A DNA stretch of 64,000 nt, taken from NCBI GenBank assembly GCA_029861865.1, contig JAOTYL010000001.1, positions 196,066 to 260,065 on the forward strand, given 5' to 3'. The notes beneath the pieces were generated by a model, which saw only the letters and a list, made by a program, of their open reading frames with translations, had not been told where the DNA came from and made no database searches. The DNA is from Myxococcales bacterium (lineage in GTDB: Bacteria; Myxococcota_A; Polyangia; Polyangiales; Houyiibacteriaceae). This document shows, piece after piece, positions 42,573 to 53,082 of the stretch. How positions within the stretch are numbered: position 1 is the stretch's first letter; each line of letters begins with the position of its first letter. A program made the translations under genes and the position numbers.

Positions 42573-44315
<1,743 letters not shown>

Positions 44316-44316
44316 C

Positions 44317-44499
44317 CTATCGTTCCTTGATCAGACTTGCCACCGCCGCGCGCACGAGGATCGTCAGCGCGTGCCGCTCGGGTGGGGATAGCCGCTCGTG
44401 CTGACGTCGACCGTTGAATCGGTTGCCTTGCTTGCGCTGGTGCTTCGGCAGGGGGCGCGATGTGCGCGCAGGTTCGCTTGTGCGAGGCGTTCCGGCCAT
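44317..44499 (-). CDS. Small basic protein upstream of the recombinase
   Basis: A 60-codon frame, rich in Arg with a C-terminal helix (SPPERHALTILVRAAVASLIKER). Its TAG stop lies 1 base before the recombinase ATG, and the recombinase ribosome-binding site sits in its last codons, so the two would be translationally coupled. A directionality factor or regulator would fit this place, but I recognise no family and the ribosome-binding site is poor. Confidence 0.35.
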   Translation of the reverse strand: MAGTPRTSEPARTSRPLPKHQRKQGNRFNGRRQHERLSPPERHALTILVRAAVASLIKER

Positions 44500-44596
44500 T
44501 CCTTGTTATCGGTTTTGCCCCCCGAAAAGTTGCGCGAGCCCATTGGCGGCCCGCCGCGCGGCCGAGACCTTGCTCAGCTTTGCCGAAAGTTGCTCC

Positions 44597-44685
44597 GGTG
44601 TCGCTACTTGGCGCGACCTGGCGCTACTTGTCGCTCGCGGTGCACTCGTTGTCACTCGCGCGACACTTCGTGTCACTTCTTGTCG
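44597..44685. repeat. Iteron-like imperfect repeats upstream of the recombinase
   Basis: About four imperfect copies, roughly 22-23 bp apart, of a motif like GTCRCTNNTTGTCGC, with a short dyad GACAC-TTC-GTGTC inside. No gene is supported from 44500 to 44926; frames through here are low-complexity. Confidence 0.5.
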
Positions 44686-44718
44686 TTTTTGCCAGAGAGT
44701 GTCGCGGTAATGACAGAA

Positions 44719-44770
44719 AGCGCCAGGTTGTGACTCACCGAGGACAACCAGCGTCAGTTTGTGACTCACC
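44719..44770. repeat. Pair of 21-bp direct repeats
   Basis: 44719-44739 and 44750-44770 are identical except for two positions, with a 31-bp period; both end TTGTGACTCACC. Together with the neighbouring iteron-like repeats they form a cluster of likely protein-binding sites between the recombinase and its cargo. Confidence 0.6.
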
Positions 44771-44926
44771 ACCGGAGGGCAAGGCATAGTTTTGGCAGAC
44801 ACCAAAACTGCACGGCACTCGCTTCGGGCCTCCGTCCCGAACTCGACCGTGAACCGTGCGCTCAACGCCTTCGGCTTATTCGCGCGCGCAGGGGCAGCGC
44901 TTGGACGGCTTGTACCCTCGGCACGC

Positions 44927-46141
44927 CTACGGCTGCACCTCAAACGCACCCACGTCGCACAGGGTGCCGCCTGTTTCTGGTCGTGGCTCTCCGCGCTGAT
45001 CGGTATCAACCTGACAGTCAGCTTCGGGAATGACGTCGATGGCGACGCTGCCGGGAAGCAGCGCATGCGTCTCGGTCGGTCCGCCGTTGTCGGCAAGCGG
45101 TCCAAGGTTCAAGTCCTCAGCGCTGATGTTGACCTGGTCGGTCGGGTCGTTGAAGCCGCAGGTGTCGCCGGGGCTTTCGAGGTTGCCGCCACCCGACAGC
45201 GCCGTGCCACCACCGCAATCGTTATCGACCAAGGTGTTGGTCAGCGTCAGTTCCCCGAAGTTGTCAATGCCGCCGCCCACCTCCGCGACATTCCCCGACA
45301 CGGTGCTGTTGATCAGCATTACCGTCCCCTGATTGTAAATACCGCCGGCGCCGCCGAATATGCCGTCGCCCGACACCGCGGTATTGTGCGACACGGTGCT
45401 GTTGGTCAGCGTCAGTTCCCCGAAGTTGTCAATGCCGCCGCCCGACTCCGCGGTATTGCGCGACACGGTGCTGTTGGTCAGCGTCAGGTCCCCTTCGTTG
45501 AAAATGCCGCCGCCGAGGAGCGCGCTATTCCCCGACACGGTGCTGTTGGTCAGCGTCAGGTCCCCTTCGTTGAAAATGCCGGCGCCGCGGCCACCGGGGT
45601 TCCCGCCAGTCACCAACAATCCGCGCAACTCCACCGCTACGCCCTCTGGGACCGAAAACACACGATGGTCTTCATCGCCATCGACCATCAGGTTACCTTC
45701 GCCGTCGAGGGTGACGTCGTTGTCGATGACGGTTTCCGCCGCGGTCACCACCGTCTTCGGCCCGTCGCAATCAAACGTGTAGGGTCCACCGCCCGCGGCA
45801 ATGGCGTCGCGGATGCCTTGCTCCGTGCACGCTACCTGGCAGCTACCCTGCTGACACGTGCCCGCGTCGTTGCCACACACCGTGCCGTCAGCGACGGGCA
45901 CACACATCCCCTCTCCGCACATACCCGTGCTGCACTCGTTGCCTTCCTCGCAAGCCGTGCCGTCATCGACCGGAGTGTAGTCGCACATACCGTCCGCCGG
46001 GTCGCATAGATCGTGGGTGCATTCGTTCCCGTCGTCGCAGTCGACGCCTTCACACAGGTCGGTCCCTTCGCAGCCACTGCACCCGACCATCAGAGGGAGG
46101 CTCAGTGCGAGGGCACCTATGAATCGGAATACGTAACGCAT
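44927..46141 (-). CDS. Choice-of-anchor-Q domain lipoprotein 1
   Basis: A 404-residue outer-surface lipoprotein: lipobox LMVGC (Cys21), a cysteine-rich linker (DLCEGVDCDDGNECTHDLC and two similar units), then a right-handed beta-helix built from about five repeats of the type LTLTNSTVSGNSA..GGGIFN. It ends in the choice-of-anchor-Q domain (NLGPLADNGGPTETHALLPG ... CDVGAFEV). ATG 46141 is chosen because it gives the signal peptide and has GGGAGGTG upstream; the frame is open to 46426. It shares domain order and leader DNA with the gene at 47172. Function unknown; adhesion or polysaccharide binding is possible from the fold. Confidence 0.85.
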   Translation of the reverse strand: MRYVFRFIGALALSLPLMVGCSGCEGTDLCEGVDCDDGNECTHDLCDPADGMCDYTPVDDGTACEEGNECSTGMCGEGMCVPVADGTVCGNDAGTCQQGSCQVACTEQGIRDAIAAGGGPYTFDCDGPKTVVTAAETVIDNDVTLDGEGNLMVDGDEDHRVFSVPEGVAVELRGLLVTGGNPGGRGAGIFNEGDLTLTNSTVSGNSALLGGGIFNEGDLTLTNSTVSRNTAESGGGIDNFGELTLTNSTVSHNTAVSGDGIFGGAGGIYNQGTVMLINSTVSGNVAEVGGGIDNFGELTLTNTLVDNDCGGGTALSGGGNLESPGDTCGFNDPTDQVNISAEDLNLGPLADNGGPTETHALLPGSVAIDVIPEADCQVDTDQRGEPRPETGGTLCDVGAFEVQP

Positions 46142-46277
46142 GGAGCACCTCCCGATCTGGTGCGCTTGCCACCGTGAGCTGAAGAGTAAGCATGAGACAT
46201 GCCAACCACCTGAAGGCGTTCTTTCCGGGGCATCCTGTGTAGTGAAGTGCCGGAATCGCGGTTTCCGGCGAAATATT

Positions 46278-46320
46278 TGCGGCATACGTGATTGTTCACC
46301 CGCTGGCTTTGTCCGTTGAC
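46278..46320 (-). promoter_or_regulatory. Conserved leader block of lipoprotein 1
   Basis: A 43-bp block (containing GACAAAGC, CGGGTGAA and ACGTATGC) matched at 36 of 43 positions by 46969-47011 upstream of the paralogue, at a comparable distance (137 and 160 bp) from each start. It is probably a promoter or regulatory leader; no clear -35/-10 pair is assigned. Confidence 0.5.
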
Positions 46321-46514
46321 AATGCGGCGCTTCTGAGACTCGCGACTCCCGCGCAAATGGCTGGTCGCGCTGTGGCCTCGCAGACACGACAGACTGCCGA
46401 GCAACCGGCTTGCAAGTCGGCTTCACCGCTGGAAGTGGTGCAGGGCGCGGCCCGCGGCCGCCGGGGTGACAACGAAGCGACGGAGGCAGATCATTGCGTT
46501 CTTCGGCCAGCTAC

Positions 46515-46570
46515 GCGGCAATCACCACCTCCATCGGCACCCGAAAGTCTACCGGACAACGCTGTGCGTA
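46515..46570. repeat. 56-bp flank repeat left of att2
   Basis: 51 of 56 bases match 51775-51830, which lies left of att5. With the core, the repeat extends to 72 bp. No gene is seen from 46321 to here. Confidence 0.75.
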
Positions 46571-46586
46571 TCCGGCCCCCGCAACC
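46570..46586 (+). repeat. att2 core: 17-bp copy of tRNA-fMet 3' end
   Basis: Identical to 42632-42648 of the tRNA (ATCCGGCCCCCGCAACC). Confidence 0.75.
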
Positions 46587-46590
46587 GCTC

Positions 46591-46619
46591 AAGGGCCTGC
46601 CACGTCGGCAGGCCCTTTT
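46591..46619 (+). terminator. T2: terminator after att2
   Basis: A perfect 11-bp stem (46591-46601 with 46607-46617), loop ACGTC, then T residues. Confidence 0.75.
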
Positions 46620-46715
46620 CGCATCTGCGGAGGCCATCTTCGGCTCGCACATGCAAAGCGTCCGGCTCCACGGACTGGCGTCCGCTCCGCTTCGGACGTT
46701 TGCAGTGGACGAGAG

Positions 46716-46736
46716 CAAATCTGGCCCCCGCAACCA
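46716..46736 (+). repeat. att3 core: tRNA-fMet 3' end copy
   Basis: Matches tRNA bases 42629-42648 with one mismatch, the same C-to-T change seen in att4. The 146 bp between att2 and att3 hold only T2 and no gene. Confidence 0.75.
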
Positions 46737-46742
46737 ATGATG

Positions 46743-46775
46743 ACGCGCACTTGGGAAAACCTGGGTGCGCGTTTT
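46743..46775 (+). terminator. T3: terminator after att3
   Basis: Perfect stem ACGCGCAC/GTGCGCGT (46743-46750 with 46765-46772) followed by TTT. It is related in sequence to T5. A second small hairpin (7-bp stem) is at 46816-46832. Confidence 0.65.
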
Positions 46776-46968
46776 CAATTGGCCGGGGCCATTTTGGGGC
46801 CATTCGATCTTCCTGAAACCGATGGTCGGTTTGTTTGAGGGGTGCGGCGGCCTTGCTCGAGATAGGAGCAAGAGCCGCAGATACGCGTTCCACCAATCGA
46901 GAGGTGGATGTCCAATCTGATTTTCGTTCACGATGAGCGCCGGGTTCGCTAACCACGGTGAACCCCGT

Positions 46969-47011
46969 GTCAATCGACAAAGCGAACGGGTGAAGAATTA
47001 CGTATGCTGCA
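46969..47011 (+). promoter_or_regulatory. Conserved leader block of lipoprotein 2
   Basis: Counterpart of 46278-46320 (36 of 43 identical), 160 bp before the start at 47172. Between T3 and this block (46776-46968) I see no gene. Confidence 0.5.
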
Positions 47012-47171
47012 TTGCGTGCGCAGTGACTACGGGTCGAAACGCAAGGCGTTCGTCATCAATCTTGTGGCCCGCACGTAATTGCGAACGATTCACAGTTGGC
47101 ACGTCCGATGCACCTTAAGGACCCCACCCGGTGATGCTCCGGTGGGGAGCGTCGCAGCCGGGGAGGTTGTC

Positions 47172-48704
47172 ATGCGTTATTTATTCGGATTTATGTGCGT
47201 CTGCGCGCTGGGCGTAGTTCCGCTGGTTGGGTGCGGTGAGAACGGCAATGGTCCGGGCGGTAGCGGCGGCACGGCGGCAACGGGTGGCGGCGGTAGTGGC
47301 GGCACGGCGGCAACGGGTGGCGGCGGTAGTCGCGGCACCGACCTGTGCGAAGGCGTTGACTGTGACGACGGCAATGAATGCACCGACGACACGTGCGTCG
47401 ATAGCACGTGCAGTCACACGGCCGTCGAGGATGACACTTCTTGCGGCGATGGTGCAGGGACCTGCCATGCGGGCAGCTGTTCCGGGACCTTCGCCTGCAC
47501 CGAAGCGGGGATTGGTGAGGCCATCGCCGTGGGTGGCGGACCACACACATTTGACTGCGGCGGTCCGAAGACGGTGACGACCGATGCAGAAATCGGCATC
47601 GACAGGGACGTCATCCTTGATGGGGAGGGCAACCTGACGGTCGATGGCGGCGGCGAACATGCCGACGCACTCGATGACCACCGTATCTTCTCTGTGGCTG
47701 AGGGCGTGACGGCGGAGCTGCGTGCGCTCACCGTGAGCGGAGGTGCGAGCACGGGCGACATCTTAGCCGGGGAGGGATTCGGCGGTGGCATTCACAACGA
47801 TAGGGGTGGGATACTCACTTTGACGAACAGCACCGTGTCCGGGAACACCGCGATTGTAGCTGGCGGCGGCATTTACAACCTCGGGTGGCTCACTTTGACG
47901 AACAGCACCGTGTCCGGGAACACCGCGATTGTAGCTGGCGGTGGCATTCTCACCTTTGGAACGCTAACGCTGACGAACAGCACCGTCTCGGGGAATGCGG
48001 CGACTCAGGGCGGCGGCGGCATTGCCAATTCCGGCACACTAACGCTGATGGACAGCACGGTGTCGGAGAATACCTCGCAGTTCGGCGGCGGCGGCATCGC
48101 CGTCTTCGCAGGCACGGCGACCCTGACGAACAGCACGGTGTCAGGCAATGACGGATTCGGCGTCGCTAGTGAGGGAGTTGCGACACTGATAAACAGCACA
48201 ATATCAGGCAACTCAGAAGGAAGTCTTGCGGTGGAGTGTAGCTTCGCCTTTACTATCGAGTGCGGTCGGTTCGACCTCATCAACAGCACCATGTCTGGGG
48301 ACACCGCATGTCTAAGTAGCACCGGCTTCGAATGCGACGAGCCCCAAGCCTTCAACGTCAGTACATTGACGAACACCGTTATCGACGGAGTCTGTGGTGA
48401 ACTTTGGGTGGCCACCTCCAACGGCTACAACATCGAAAGCCCCGGCAACACCTGTGGCTTCGACCAGCTGACCGACCAGGCCAGCGTTACCGAAATGCAG
48501 CTGAACCTCGGACCGCTTGCCGATAACGGCGGACCCACTCAAACGCATGCGCTCGGGCCGGGAAGCTTCGCTATCGACCAAATTCCGGTGACGGAGTGCG
48601 TCGACGTCGACAGCATGCCGCTGACCGAAGACCAGCGCGGCGTAACGCGGCCGCAGGGACCCGCGTGTGACGTTGGAGCCTTTGAACTGGAGGTGGGACC
48701 ATGA
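47172..48704 (+). CDS. Choice-of-anchor-Q domain lipoprotein 2
   Basis: A 510-residue paralogue of the gene at 44927. Lipobox PLVGC (Cys21) is followed by a Gly/Thr-rich linker made by a 33-bp DNA tandem duplication, one cysteine-rich unit (DLCEGVDCDDGNECTDDTC), six or more beta-helix repeats (LTLTNSTVSGNTAIVAGGGI) and the C-terminal choice-of-anchor-Q domain (NLGPLADNGGPTQTHALGPG ... CDVGAFELE). The ATG at 47172 has GGGAGG 5 bp upstream. The stop overlaps the next gene (ATGA), so both are made together. Confidence 0.85.
   Translation: MRYLFGFMCVCALGVVPLVGCGENGNGPGGSGGTAATGGGGSGGTAATGGGGSRGTDLCEGVDCDDGNECTDDTCVDSTCSHTAVEDDTSCGDGAGTCHAGSCSGTFACTEAGIGEAIAVGGGPHTFDCGGPKTVTTDAEIGIDRDVILDGEGNLTVDGGGEHADALDDHRIFSVAEGVTAELRALTVSGGASTGDILAGEGFGGGIHNDRGGILTLTNSTVSGNTAIVAGGGIYNLGWLTLTNSTVSGNTAIVAGGGILTFGTLTLTNSTVSGNAATQGGGGIANSGTLTLMDSTVSENTSQFGGGGIAVFAGTATLTNSTVSGNDGFGVASEGVATLINSTISGNSEGSLAVECSFAFTIECGRFDLINSTMSGDTACLSSTGFECDEPQAFNVSTLTNTVIDGVCGELWVATSNGYNIESPGNTCGFDQLTDQASVTEMQLNLGPLADNGGPTQTHALGPGSFAIDQIPVTECVDVDSMPLTEDQRGVTRPQGPACDVGAFELEVGP
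47265..47330 (+). repeat. Two tandem 33-bp repeats in the lipoprotein 2 linker
   Basis: Exact duplicates 47265-47297 and 47298-47330, each encoding GGTAATGGGGS in frame; copy number could vary without a frameshift. Confidence 0.85.
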
Positions 48705-50683
48705 CTCGATACTTAGTCGGCTTTCTATGCGTCTGCGCGCTGGGCGCCGCCGCTGGTTGCGGAGAACTGTACCCGCCATGGGGTGGCGGCGGGGGCCATC
48801 ACAAGGTTCTGATGTGCCACGTGCCACCGGGGAACCCCGATAACGCACATGAGATCTGGGTCGGCGAAAGCGCGGTCCCTGCGCACCTCGATCACGGCGA
48901 CACGCTCGGCGCTTGCCCCTTTGCATGCACGGAGCAGGAGATTGAGGACGCCGAATGGGCCTCATTCGGGCGGGACCTCGACAACAGCCGTTGGCAGAAG
49001 TGCGAGACGCAGATCTCCCCGGAGAGTGCGGCTAGGCTCGAACTGAAGTGGGTGTTCGACGGTTTCACTGAGAACGACGTGCACCACCCGGTCGGAGACA
49101 TCTCCGCTACGCCCAGCGTCGTCGGCGACGGCGTCTTTTTCGTCGATTGGACGGAAGGCCTGGAGGAGGCGAAGGTCTATCGAATCCACAAGGAGACACG
49201 AGAGGTCGTGTGGTGGCGCTACATCTGGGACATCGCCGACTTCGTCGAGGTCGACGCCGCAGGAAACCGCACTCCCATCCCAGGCCTCGTCTCCCGCACC
49301 AGCCCGCTGGTCGTGGGCGACTCCGTCATCATTGGTACCCAACGGAGGCGGCCTGAGCTGTTCAGAGATCCGCGACCGAATGCCTGGATCATCTCGTTGG
49401 ACAAGAATACAGGCGCCGTCCAGTGGAAGACCGAGCCGCCCCGCGATCCGCTCTGGCCGACACCCGCTCAGGACCCGAGCCCGAAGGACGAAGCGGGCAA
49501 CGAGCTCTTGCCTATTCCCGACGGTTCGGAGATCGTCATCACTGCCTCTCCTGTTGCTCACGACAACCGCATTTACGTCGGCGTGTCGGGCTGGGCGGAG
49601 TTTCTCTCGTTCTGGGCGCACTACCGGTTCTTCTACCGTGGAAGCGTCTTGTGCCTGGATGCCACGAACGGGGACGTGATTTGGCAGAGCTTCATGGTCG
49701 ATGATGACCTTTACGTGACGAGCGAGGAGCCGGAGACGGACCCCAACACCGGCCAGCCCATCCCCCGCGACCGGCGCCGCTACACAGGGAACTCGGTGTG
49801 GTCGAGCGCGCCGGCGATCGATGTCAAGCGAGAGCGGCTCTACGTAACAACCGGCAACAATCACACCGCCCCAAAAAGCGTGTTGGAGGGTGTTGGTTCG
49901 GGGGAGATTGTCGACCTGCCTCAACCCGGGAACTACATGGACTCGATCGTCGCTCTGGATCTCGGGACCGGTGCCGCCGAATGGTCTTACAGCCCCGTCG
50001 GCAACCTGGTCGATGTCTGGCAAATCTTCTGCAGGGACACCGACTCCGACTCCTGCGCGGAGGGACCTGACTTCGATTACGGTGCCGGGGCGAACCTTTT
50101 CTCTGTGGAGATCGGTGGCGAGCGGCGCGATGTCGTGGGCGCTGGCTCCAAAGCCGGGACCTACAGCGCCGTCGAGGCTGACACCGAAGACCCGCGACCC
50201 GCTCCCCTCTGGGAGACCCAGGTGGGACCGGGGTCCTTTTTTGGCGGCATTCACTGGGGCACGTCTGTCGCCAACGGCGTCGTCTATGCTCCCCTGGGGG
50301 ATGGCTTTAGAGAGTCGGGCGACAACGGCTTCTTCGCCGCTCTTGACGGCGCGACAGGACAGTTCGTTTGGAAGGTCCCCAACCCGATCGCAGATGAGGG
50401 TTTCCCGCCGGCGAATTATCCAGCCGCTTTCGGGGGAATTCACATGAGCATCCATGCACCAACGACGGTTGCAAACGGGGTCGTCTTCGGGGCTCCCTTC
50501 GACCTCGAGGGGCACATGCTCGCCCTTGACGCGGCAACGGGCGATCTTCTCTGGTCCTACCCGAGCGGTGCCACGGTGTACGGCGGTCCGGCGGTGGTCG
50601 ATGGGGTCGTCTACTGGGGGAACGGCTATCAGACAGTAGCCGGGACACGGGGCAAGGGGCTCTTCGCCTTCCACGTACCTTAG
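48701..50683 (+). CDS. PQQ-type beta-propeller lipoprotein
   Basis: A 660-residue lipoprotein (AAAGC, Cys20) whose signal peptide resembles that of the upstream gene. After a Gly-rich stretch comes a CHVPPGNPDNAHEIWVG motif, a known small module of surface proteins. Residues from about 80 form an eight-bladed PQQ-like propeller (WASFGRDLDNSRW, GDVIWQSFMVDDD, GAAEWSYSPVGN, GDLLWSYPSGATVYG). The closest type I recognise is the polyvinyl-alcohol/quinohaemoprotein dehydrogenase family. No haem c CxxCH motif is visible, so electron transfer would need a partner. The start is coupled to lipoprotein 2. Confidence 0.85.
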   Translation: MTRYLVGFLCVCALGAAAGCGELYPPWGGGGGHHKVLMCHVPPGNPDNAHEIWVGESAVPAHLDHGDTLGACPFACTEQEIEDAEWASFGRDLDNSRWQKCETQISPESAARLELKWVFDGFTENDVHHPVGDISATPSVVGDGVFFVDWTEGLEEAKVYRIHKETREVVWWRYIWDIADFVEVDAAGNRTPIPGLVSRTSPLVVGDSVIIGTQRRRPELFRDPRPNAWIISLDKNTGAVQWKTEPPRDPLWPTPAQDPSPKDEAGNELLPIPDGSEIVITASPVAHDNRIYVGVSGWAEFLSFWAHYRFFYRGSVLCLDATNGDVIWQSFMVDDDLYVTSEEPETDPNTGQPIPRDRRRYTGNSVWSSAPAIDVKRERLYVTTGNNHTAPKSVLEGVGSGEIVDLPQPGNYMDSIVALDLGTGAAEWSYSPVGNLVDVWQIFCRDTDSDSCAEGPDFDYGAGANLFSVEIGGERRDVVGAGSKAGTYSAVEADTEDPRPAPLWETQVGPGSFFGGIHWGTSVANGVVYAPLGDGFRESGDNGFFAALDGATGQFVWKVPNPIADEGFPPANYPAAFGGIHMSIHAPTTVANGVVFGAPFDLEGHMLALDAATGDLLWSYPSGATVYGGPAVVDGVVYWGNGYQTVAGTRGKGLFAFHVP

Positions 50684-50848
50684 GCCTGCGGACAAGTGGA
50701 GGACGGCCGCAACTGAACGACTTACCGTGGCCATCTTGGGTCCACAGAGCTACCGAACAGCACAAGAACCACAACCTCAGCAAGTCACAACGTGCGCGAA
50801 ACGTGGTAGAAACGCACGACACAACATGAGCAAGGCTGCTCGCGCGTC

Positions 50849-50889
50849 CTCATAACCCGAAGGTCGTCGGTTCAAATCTGGCCCCCGCA
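50849..50889 (+). repeat. att4 core: 41-bp copy of tRNA-fMet 3' half
   Basis: Matches 42605-42645 at 40 of 41 positions. One A of the discriminator region is missing just after it, so it is a remnant and not a working tRNA end. Bases 50684-50848 hold no visible gene. Confidence 0.85.
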
Positions 50890-50894
50890 CCTGC

Positions 50895-50930
50895 GAAAAG
50901 CCCGCCGAGGTTCGGCGGGCTTTTCTTGTT
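50895..50930 (+). terminator. T4: strong terminator after att4
   Basis: A perfect 14-bp stem (50895-50908 with 50912-50925), 3-base loop, T-rich tail. It looks like the original tRNA terminator displaced by insertion. Confidence 0.8.
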
Positions 50931-51087
50931 CGGTTGGGGCGCGGATTCAGCTCATCACGAATCGAGCAGCTCCCCAAATCCGGCCTGGACCATCGCCGAT
51001 CGCGAAGCGGGATCGCGGACACGCTCGACCGGCGACAAGGTCCGCCCCCGGTTGGCTTGCGCGGCGCAAGCGGTGTAGCCTCCGGTC

Positions 51088-51270
51088 GTGTCCCACGAGC
51101 CAAACCAAATGCCTGACGTCGAAGAGCTCGTTCGACAGGCTGCGCGCGAGGTTGACCGCACGCTCATTGATTGGGCGCTATCGCTTTCGCCGCTGGAGCG
51201 ACTACGTGCTTCGATGCGCTCTGCCGCCTCGCTCGAGGCCTTGAGAGATGCCAAGTCCAAGGGACACTGA
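51088..51270 (+). CDS. Small partner protein (antitoxin-like) of the nucleotidyltransferase
   Basis: A 60-residue acidic-helical protein from a GTG at 51088: PDVEELVRQAAREVDRTL followed by LSPLERLRASMRSAASLEAL. Small LSPxERL proteins often precede nucleotidyltransferase-type genes. It overlaps the next gene by 23 bp, in another frame, which suggests coupled translation. Antitoxin function is inferred only from size and position. Confidence 0.55.
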   Translation: MSHEPNQMPDVEELVRQAAREVDRTLIDWALSLSPLERLRASMRSAASLEALRDAKSKGH

Positions 51271-51748
51271 CGTTGGGGAGCTCCTCAGGCAGCTCTCCGA
51301 TGCTGGGGTGGAGTTCATCGTCGTGGGGGGCGCCGCGGCAGTGCTTCACGGGGCGCCCATCACGACGGAGGACCTCGACATCGTTCATCGCAGAAGCCCG
51401 GAAAACGTAGCCCGGCTCGAGACTCTACTGGACGAGCTCGGCGCCCACGTTCGCGAGGTTGCGAACCGTCGTTTGCCTCCCCAAGAATCGGCCCTGCTCG
51501 GCGAGGGACACGTGCTCTTATCGACGCGTCTCGGGCCGCTCGATTGCCTTGGAACGCTGATCGACGGCCGCGGCTTCGAAGAGCTGGTCTCCCATAGCGA
51601 GTCGATCAAGGATGAGGGCGTCGAATTCCTAGTGGTGGATTTACCAACCTTGATCGAGCTCAAGACAAAGACCGGGCGAGCCAAGGACCGCCTCATGCTG
51701 CCCGTGCTCATCGCCTTGGCGGAGCAGCTTGAAGACTCCAAAGGCTAG
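51248..51748 (+). CDS. Nucleotidyltransferase-superfamily protein (toxin-like)
   Basis: A 166-residue protein with the nucleotidyltransferase fold: FIVVGGAAAVLHGAPITTEDLDIVH near residues 19-43 holds the GG and D-x-D-type motif, and later come DCLGTL and VVDLPTLIELKTKTGRAKDRL. The family includes AbiEii/MNT-like toxins that add nucleotides to tRNA or to partner proteins. With the overlapping small gene it forms a plausible toxin-antitoxin or defence pair inside module D. Confidence 0.75.
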   Translation: MPSPRDTDVGELLRQLSDAGVEFIVVGGAAAVLHGAPITTEDLDIVHRRSPENVARLETLLDELGAHVREVANRRLPPQESALLGEGHVLLSTRLGPLDCLGTLIDGRGFEELVSHSESIKDEGVEFLVVDLPTLIELKTKTGRAKDRLMLPVLIALAEQLEDSKG

Positions 51749-51774
51749 GCGCAGGTCAGAGGATTGTGACTCAG

Positions 51775-51830
51775 GCGGCGATCACCACCTCCATCGGCAC
51801 CCCAAATCCCACCGGACAACGCTGTGCGTA
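51775..51830. repeat. 56-bp flank repeat left of att5
   Basis: Second copy of the flank at 46515-46570 (51 of 56 identical), 26 bp after the nucleotidyltransferase stop. Confidence 0.75.
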
Positions 51831-51833
51831 GCG

Positions 51834-51846
51834 GGCCCCCGCAACC
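51834..51846 (+). repeat. att5 core: 13-bp copy of tRNA-fMet 3' end
   Basis: GGCCCCCGCAACC, the shortest core. Its right flank matches that of att3 for about 70 bp with gaps. Confidence 0.6.
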
Positions 51847-51854
51847 AATGATGG

Positions 51855-51880
51855 CGCGCACTTGGCCCGGTGCGCGTTGT
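51855..51880 (+). terminator. T5: terminator-like hairpin after att5
   Basis: Stem CGCGCAC/GTGCGCG (51855-51861 with 51870-51876), then TTGT; the sequence is related to T3. The T-run is weak. Confidence 0.45.
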
Positions 51881-51959
51881 CAATTGCGCTTGGGCCAATC
51901 TTGGGCCAATCGGCCGTTGGGCGTCCTGACACGAGTGGCCCGCTCGTGTCATTGCTTCG

Positions 51960-52562
51960 CTATGTTTTCTTGCTTTTCTTGAACCCGAAGTCCGGCTTCT
52001 CTCCGCGGATGAGCATGTCCAGGAACTTGTCGAAGCGCCTCTGTCTGGTTTCGGGTCGCTTGGCCGTCGTGAGTCCGTAAGCGATGGCGTATCGATCGGT
52101 TTTGTTCAACGTTTCAAAGCATTGTTTCGCTTTGGGCTTGCGTTCGACCGCTGCCAGGAAATCCGCGGGCACTGTCATTTCGCTTGCCGCGTAGGCATTC
52201 TTCCAGCGTCCGTCCGCCTTCGCGGCGCGGACCTGCACCAGCCCCGGCTCTTGCATCCGGCCCTCGCCGATCAAACGCTCCGCGTGCTCTCGGTTCCGCT
52301 TGGACCAACTGCTTCGAGGTTTTCGTGGCGTGATCCGTTGGAGGTAGGCTTCGCCATCGATGGACTTTTTGACGCCGTCGATCCAGCCCCAGCACAGCGT
52401 TTCAATGACAATCTCAGTCCAACTGACGCTTGGTTTGCCCGTCTTCACTTTGAATACCTTGATCCAAAGTTCATTTTCGGAGGCATGGTTTGCTTTGAGC
52501 CATTGATTCAGCTTCCTTGCTGACGCAAAGGTTTTGATCTTCGCTGGATCGGGTTCGGGCAT
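51960..52562 (-). CDS. YdeI/OmpD-associated family protein
   Basis: A 200-residue protein of the YdeI (bacteriocin-protection, OmpD-associated) family: FASARKLNQWLKANHASENELWIKV-type N-terminus (about residues 11-35), the conserved ETLCWGWIDGVKK and RITPRKPRSSWSKRNREHAERL, and a C-terminal helical DUF with ETRQRRFDKFLDML. The exact role is unclear. ATG 52562 is chosen since the family starts close to the KTFxSxxxLxxWL motif; the frame is open to 52724. Confidence 0.85.
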   Translation of the reverse strand: MPEPDPAKIKTFASARKLNQWLKANHASENELWIKVFKVKTGKPSVSWTEIVIETLCWGWIDGVKKSIDGEAYLQRITPRKPRSSWSKRNREHAERLIGEGRMQEPGLVQVRAAKADGRWKNAYAASEMTVPADFLAAVERKPKAKQCFETLNKTDRYAIAYGLTTAKRPETRQRRFDKFLDMLIRGEKPDFGFKKSKKT

Positions 52563-52602
52563 GGGATCAGAAACCAGTGGCGCAAGAGTTATCGTGTCCC
52601 GA

Positions 52603-53082
52603 CTAACCCACCGGCGTGCGACCGCGCGCCTTTTCTGGGTCGCGCATGTCGAGGAGAGACACCCCGACGCCGTAGGTCGCGAAGTGGCCGGTTGGACGAA
52701 TTTCGATGATGGAGTTGTCGTCATTGTTCGCGTGATCGATCATCCGTCCCAGAAGAGCTTCGAGGAGCTTCGGTTCGACCTCGCTCATTGGAAGCACGCG
52801 CGCGGTGCCGCTGAACGCGATCGTCGCGTCGGGGATGTCGATCCAGGGCATGAACGGAACGCGTTTGGAAATGGTCACATTGAGTGCGACGTGGGGGTTC
52901 CGCCGGATGTGCTTTGCCTTCCACGACTCCGTGGCCACCCGTACGTAGAGGACCCGGTCGATCGGGACATAGACGATGCCGGAGGAGCGGGCCTGGCCTT
53001 TGGGATTCACATAGGAAAGCACGGCGAACGAGCGCTTCTCGATCTCTCTCCAAACGAGGTCCGAGGTGACGGGAGCTGGCAT
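52603..53082 (-). CDS. Pyridoxamine-5'-phosphate-oxidase-fold flavoprotein
   Basis: A 159-residue split-barrel (PPOX) protein: SFAVLSYVNPKGQARSSGIVYV, LYVRVATESWKAKHIRRNPHVAL and a C-terminal IIEIRPTGHFATYGVGVSL strand. Such proteins bind FMN, F420 or haem and reduce small molecules; the cofactor cannot be told from sequence. It is divergent from the oxidoreductase at 53228. Confidence 0.85.
   Translation of the reverse strand: MPAPVTSDLVWREIEKRSFAVLSYVNPKGQARSSGIVYVPIDRVLYVRVATESWKAKHIRRNPHVALNVTISKRVPFMPWIDIPDATIAFSGTARVLPMSEVEPKLLEALLGRMIDHANNDDNSIIEIRPTGHFATYGVGVSLLDMRDPEKARGRTPVG

Follow-up and report, generated by a model that had tools for sequence, protein, structure and literature searches.

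Behind the tRNA-Met gene of this genome, five copies of a short core are probably junctions left by recombination, where inserted elements have accumulated into an array, and the arrangement at 46.5 kb is probably the joint work of an element with a large serine recombinase (LSR), E1, and a gene-free mini-unit, E2, which would be the tRNA-Met representative of a wider set of H mini-units. The window analyzed here, the whole stretch of 64,000 nt, comes from contig C6; the genome measures 4.2 Mb. The anchor of the array and presumed attB is a tRNA-Met (CAT) gene on the plus strand at 42573 to 42648, found by ARAGORN and by Rfam (RF00005, 63 bits). The crossover core common to the stacked elements consists of the 13 bases of its 3′ end, GGCCCCCGCAACC (att1, 42636 to 42648, plus strand). 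The core recurs on the same strand at att2 (46574 to 46586), att3 (46723 to 46735, with the left arm GAGCAAATCT, an H unit end), att4 (50849 to 50892, where it ends a T arm, the 3′ half of tRNA-Met, 98% identical to the tRNA over 41 nt), and att5 (51775 to 51846, an M arm plus core). At each of the five sites, the core derived from the tRNA is flanked by a left arm and by a right arm, the latter usually with a terminator. The sequence GGCCCCCGCA occurs 5 times in the window, compared to 0.34 expected.

Like a tDNA island under the Islander definition, the locus has an intact tRNA gene (att1) and a displaced fragment of it in the same orientation (att4), and, as in accretion arrays of the CIME type, E2, E3, and E4 are bounded by cores and lack a recombinase of their own. 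No PF00589 match indicating a tyrosine integrase on the island is among those listed for the window (G000:C6:196066-260065); the recombinase found there is a serine recombinase. Comparison of the site region with phage records gave no match, and an exact match to M was absent from viral contigs.

An earlier note on this DNA had drawn attention to the resemblance between the 46.5-kb site and att5, and the alignments bear it out. The left flanks (46515 to 46570 and 51775 to 51830) are identical at 51 of 56 bases, exactly as claimed; aligned with the core included (46515 to 46586 against 51775 to 51846), they match at 90% over 72 bp (E value of 1.5e-21 for the whole genome). The right flanks, compared from 46723 at att3 and from 51834 at att5, are 80% identical over 84 bp (E value of 3.4e-14) and 97% identical over the first 32 bp. 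The similarity is far beyond what chance would give, and the flank alignments exclude one confined to the core. The note's reading of the sites as recombination junctions is supported, the core being tRNA derived, and its description of a gene-free stretch running from core to core was also correct, with two amendments: the period is 149 bp, not 146 bp (GGCCCCCGCA at 46574 and 46723), and the insert holds more than terminator T2, since 46626 to 46732 is in addition a large imperfect palindrome that includes a conserved hairpin. A search for the insert elsewhere, which the note had proposed, found a second gene-free unit in another species.

The left flank shared by att2 and att5, module M, has the properties of a coding end of the LSR gene. 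A 91-bp query of M gave 24 BLAST matches in 11 of the 19 genomes of the genus, with the copies ending at the core, whereas the family's other genera gave no match; named contigs with the module are MAGs labeled Myxococcales, Polyangiaceae, Deltaproteobacteria, or uncultured bacterium. The M arm at att2 (46511 to 46573, minus strand; identified by BLAST matches and codon bias) encodes ...GYAQRCPVDFRVPMEVVIAA* in the LSR frame, and minus-strand M continues that frame across the core. M is under coding constraint: changes among 22 copies comprise 47 synonymous and 40 nonsynonymous ones in the LSR frame (54% synonymous, compared to 24% expected), and the other two frames give 13% and 16%. An LSR remnant in G029 continues in frame into M. 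Considered as a folded site, M has no excess structure (z of 0.02). A further M-plus-core site, 93% identical to att2, lies at G000:C18:122619-122701 (L001 5620-5702); no tRNA was present within the 11 kb fetched around it, and its right arm is of a kind unseen elsewhere in this material.

The LSR gene (42606 to 44315, minus strand, 569 amino acids) lies directly behind tRNA-Met on the opposite strand and ends inside the tRNA gene, whose antisense strand encodes the C-terminal tail VAGAGFEPTTFGL*. Its translation has the Pfam Resolvase, Recombinase, and Zn_ribbon_recom domains that characterize serine integrases. E1 as a whole (42649 to 46586) consists of an R4 arm, the LSR gene, a choice-of-anchor-Q protein gene (44927 to 46144, minus strand), the M arm, and the core. 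The R4 arm starts with a P′ half-site, CATAGCGTTGACCG (42649 to 42662, plus strand), which is a 12/14 inverted, core-centered match to the P half-site CGGACAACGCTGTG in the M arm of att2 (46553 to 46566). Joined through the core, M and R4 form an inverted repeat of 12 to 13/14 centered on GGC|CCC; only 6 of 5,000 shuffles reach 12/14, and the symmetry of M with right arms other than R4 is 7 to 9/14 only. With its length of ~50 bp and its half-sites inverted about a short crossover, the site conforms to what is expected of a serine integrase attP. Elements of the form R4...M occur in three genomes (the window, G024:C169, and G029:C14, where the LSR is decayed). Because M lies in the LSR frame, M-core-R4 carries inverted half-sites, and R4...M elements exist, we read M-core-R4 as the putative attP of the LSR and, from sequence, att2 most simply as the right end of E1 inserted at tRNA-Met; att5 is best read as the same kind of end from an older, separate insertion. 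This LSR would also have made the M junctions; against that, full-length genes close to it were found in only 3 of the 19 genomes, whereas M sites are frequent, and most M junctions therefore lack a nearby recombinase.

Insertion at tRNA-Met would have cut the LSR gene at the core and replaced its M-encoded C terminus with one encoded by the tRNA antisense strand, such that the integrated protein would end in the tail given above instead of VAGA(R/G)YAQRCPVEFGVPMEVVIAA*. A tRNA gene as the target of an LSR whose C terminus is swapped by integration would be unusual. An element of this type would add a target class for a widely used group of enzymes, and the exchange of the C terminus upon integration would add a simple self-limiting switch.

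Arms are reassorted at the core throughout the genus. The left arms there are of three kinds (the intact tRNA, the 44-nt tRNA 3′ half, and M) and the right arms of six or more, nearly all of them terminator-like, and the two sets combine freely: the R1 arm follows the tRNA 8 times, T 9 times, and M 10 times, and the R4 arm is found after all three. Free combination of this sort would be the expected outcome of repeated recombination at the core. The R1b arm, with its terminator, follows att3 (46736 to 46806, plus strand) as well as att5 (51847 to 51912, plus strand). Between these sites lie cassette E3 (46736 to 50892), with genes for a choice-of-anchor-Q and a PQQ-propeller protein, a T arm, and the core, and cassette E4 (50893 to 51846), with an R5-type arm, a nucleotidyltransferase-like gene (51248 to 51748), an M arm, and the core. 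In G025, a close relative with the same cassettes in another order, E3 has a different location, and the E4 region (51048 to 51866) has an 87% match in G013:C88. The repeat-rich choice-of-anchor-Q proteins encoded at 44927 to 46144 and 47079 to 48704, on opposite strands of neighboring cassettes, are related in sequence. Beyond att5, a ydeI/OmdA-type gene (51960 to 52724) contains a segment (51989 to 52596) that is inverted relative to G025, where it stands after an H cap.

Mini-unit E2 (46587 to 46735) contains no gene and is ordered as core, terminator, degenerate inverted core, covarying hairpin H, and core. Terminator T2 (46591 to 46620, plus strand) is recognizable in the sequence as a hairpin plus a T run; the degenerate inverted core TGCGGAGGCCA (46626 to 46636, minus strand) pairs with the att3 core and is intact at the matching place in G024:C167. 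The conserved H hairpin (46652 to 46705, plus strand) scores 64.4 bits (E value of 5e-16) with the covariance model, whose seed alignment includes this copy. Caps like that of E2 occur in the relatives G024:C167, G025:C24, and G013:C3, and in G021:C73, from another species, there is a complete 148-bp unit, likewise without genes, whose terminator differs.

The covariance model, built from nine copies including that of E2, matches 17 of the 19 genomes of the genus at an E value of 0.1 or better and 28 of 144 genomes of the order at the stricter threshold of 1e-6. The hairpin covaries, with a score of 0.307 compared to 0.121 for shuffled alignments (0 of 500), well above both shuffles and slid controls. 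H units are also associated with tRNA genes: 23 of the 42 copies inspected stand behind an intact tRNA (Leu, Asp, Lys, Asn, or Gln) or tmRNA gene on the same strand, in 22 cases at a distance of 47 to 116 nt and in the genus mostly at 82 to 116 nt, and several of the remaining copies are second units of a tandem pair or belong to the tRNA-Met array. Placement at tRNAs is found in this genus, and the tmRNA-associated units are from other families of the order. Tandem units of 149 to 165 bp occur behind tRNA-Leu and other genes. The stretch after H copies the 3′ end of its own tRNA at 14 to 16 of 16 bases in 12 of the 22 units tested, and the copy is partial or absent in the other 10; the inverted T-arm copy in the units has weak tRNA specificity. 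At tRNA-Lys of G025, the T-stem of the copy is that of the unoccupied gene in G000, from which the G025 gene itself differs; this pattern, a single case, would be expected of a unit that arrived with its own tRNA end. The right flanks of tRNA-Lys in G000 and G025 are not collinear and offer no clean empty site.

H copies with no nearby tRNA also exist, by the tens in some genomes, and many of those in other genera lie away from tRNAs. G052, G008, G012, and G007 have tens of dispersed H hairpins each, mostly with no tRNA nearby in those read, and at L182 (G062:C11) and L188 (G040:C469), 17 and 7 tRNA genes within ~3 kb have H hairpins between them. An Rfam search with the H unit returned only tRNAs at E values up to 1 and no known structured RNA, a literature search for palindromic mini-elements at tRNA genes found nothing matching, and no protein could be linked to the units. 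We infer that H units are mobile; they would probably insert as nonautonomous units that carry their own tRNA 3′ end. We propose, tentatively, that they could represent an undescribed class of gene-free mobile units of Polyangiaceae-type bacteria, inserting at many tRNA and tmRNA 3′ ends, equipped with a folded hairpin and a tRNA 3′ end that matches the target, and sharing cores with arrays such as that of tRNA-Met. If mobile, they would be very small pieces of gene-free DNA able to occupy many different tRNA genes.

Other histories can be written for the 46.5-kb site. The earlier note had regarded att5 as its parent, and an M site followed by R1b, like att5, could have stood there until a mini-element inserted into its core and left M joined to T2 and H joined to R1b. 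Such an insertion yields the right topology, and the arm that most often follows M is of the R1 type (10 R1 and 1 R1b), so a parent of this kind could have existed. We nevertheless find it improbable: an intact E1, both attP half-sites included, separates tRNA-Met from att2, and its insertion between the tRNA and a preexisting mini-unit accounts for att2 with no need for that parent; elsewhere in the genus, intact tRNAs are directly followed by H units, which fits a mini-unit present before E1. Moreover, the left flank shared with att5 is a recombinase element end found at many places, and the right flank in common belongs to a set of several terminator arms that are interchangeable. The order of insertion at 46.5 kb, which the sequence alone does not decide, is inferred to be the mini-unit beside the tRNA first and E1 later, an order that needs no vanished parent and agrees with the H units directly behind other tRNAs. 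The note had also raised the idea of a scar, and a longer H-capped element might have lost its interior through recombination of the next core with a cryptic one in its cap, GCAAATCCGGCC. The cap does lead into a ydeI-type gene in G024:C167 and G025:C24, with GCAAATCCGGCC exactly at the place of the att3 core of the window. The 148-bp unit of G021:C73 and the tandem units show instead a gene-free form that is found repeatedly and often in multiple copies, and a simple scar of an excised element is less likely given that the hairpin is conserved; we give this history a minor but real chance.

The agents and nature of the units can also be construed differently. A tyrosine integrase might have made all of the junctions, with the LSR as a passenger: the gene for a 359-amino-acid tyrosine recombinase ends beside the R1 arm of tRNA-Met in G015:C89 (3236 to 4315; L100), and the 44-nt tRNA 3′ halves that make up the T arms are typical of such integrases. 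That M is coding in the LSR frame and that M-core-R4 alone among the arm combinations has symmetric half-sites of the serine type argue against this, and we find it improbable; the G015 integrase may have made the T junctions, and two recombinase classes appear to use the same tRNA-Met. H units, in turn, might be structured transcripts, or signals for the processing of tRNA operons, and not insertions; the covariation of the hairpin and its fairly fixed distance behind tRNA genes of the genus speak for this. Their second tRNA 3′ ends, tandem copies, and dispersed copies, together with their presence at some tRNAs and absence at the counterparts, make this rather unlikely. Our preferred reading thus remains E1 together with an H mini-unit at tRNA-Met.

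The array resembles several known systems and differs from each. SCC elements of staphylococci use Ccr serine recombinases and, as at tRNA-Met, combine recombinase-bearing elements with recombinase-less cassettes at the 3′ end of a single gene with a short core, but here the target is a tRNA gene and the end of the recombinase gene overlaps attP. Ccr models are among the weak NCBIfam matches of the LSR, which stays far below the cutoffs of CcrA, CcrB, and CcrC (87 bits, compared to 900 for CcrB). Integron cassette arrays are characterized by an IntI integrase and folded attC sites with RYYYAAC/GTTRRRY ends; the cores seen at tRNA-Met are tRNA 3′ ends, and M is no more folded than expected. REP, MITE, and other dispersed palindromic repeats are short, gene free, and hairpin forming, as are H units, which likewise reach tens of copies in some genomes; unlike those repeats, H units in this genus stand behind tRNA genes, and many carry a duplicate of that gene's 3′ end.

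The tandem accretion of ICEs, IMEs, and CIMEs at tRNA 3′ ends (PMC5704250) and the tandem tDNA islands cataloged by Islander (PMC4383910) share with the tRNA-Met array the stacking behind a tRNA, the copies of an attachment core between elements, the mixture of elements with and without a recombinase, and the chimeric internal att sites. The tRNA-Met array differs in having gene-free units down to 149 bp and in the presence, in different genomes, of serine and tyrosine recombinase genes at the same tRNA end; conjugation genes were not noticed among those annotated. Mycobacteriophages with integration-dependent immunity (PMC8092301) have attP within the 3′ end of a gene; integration changes the C terminus of the product, and the tails of the free form, ending in -AA, are read as ssrA-like degradation signals. 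Most M-encoded tails also end in AA and so recall, as a lead only, the phage proteins thought to be destabilized by such tails (PMC8092301); the protein that would be changed here is the recombinase itself and not a repressor.
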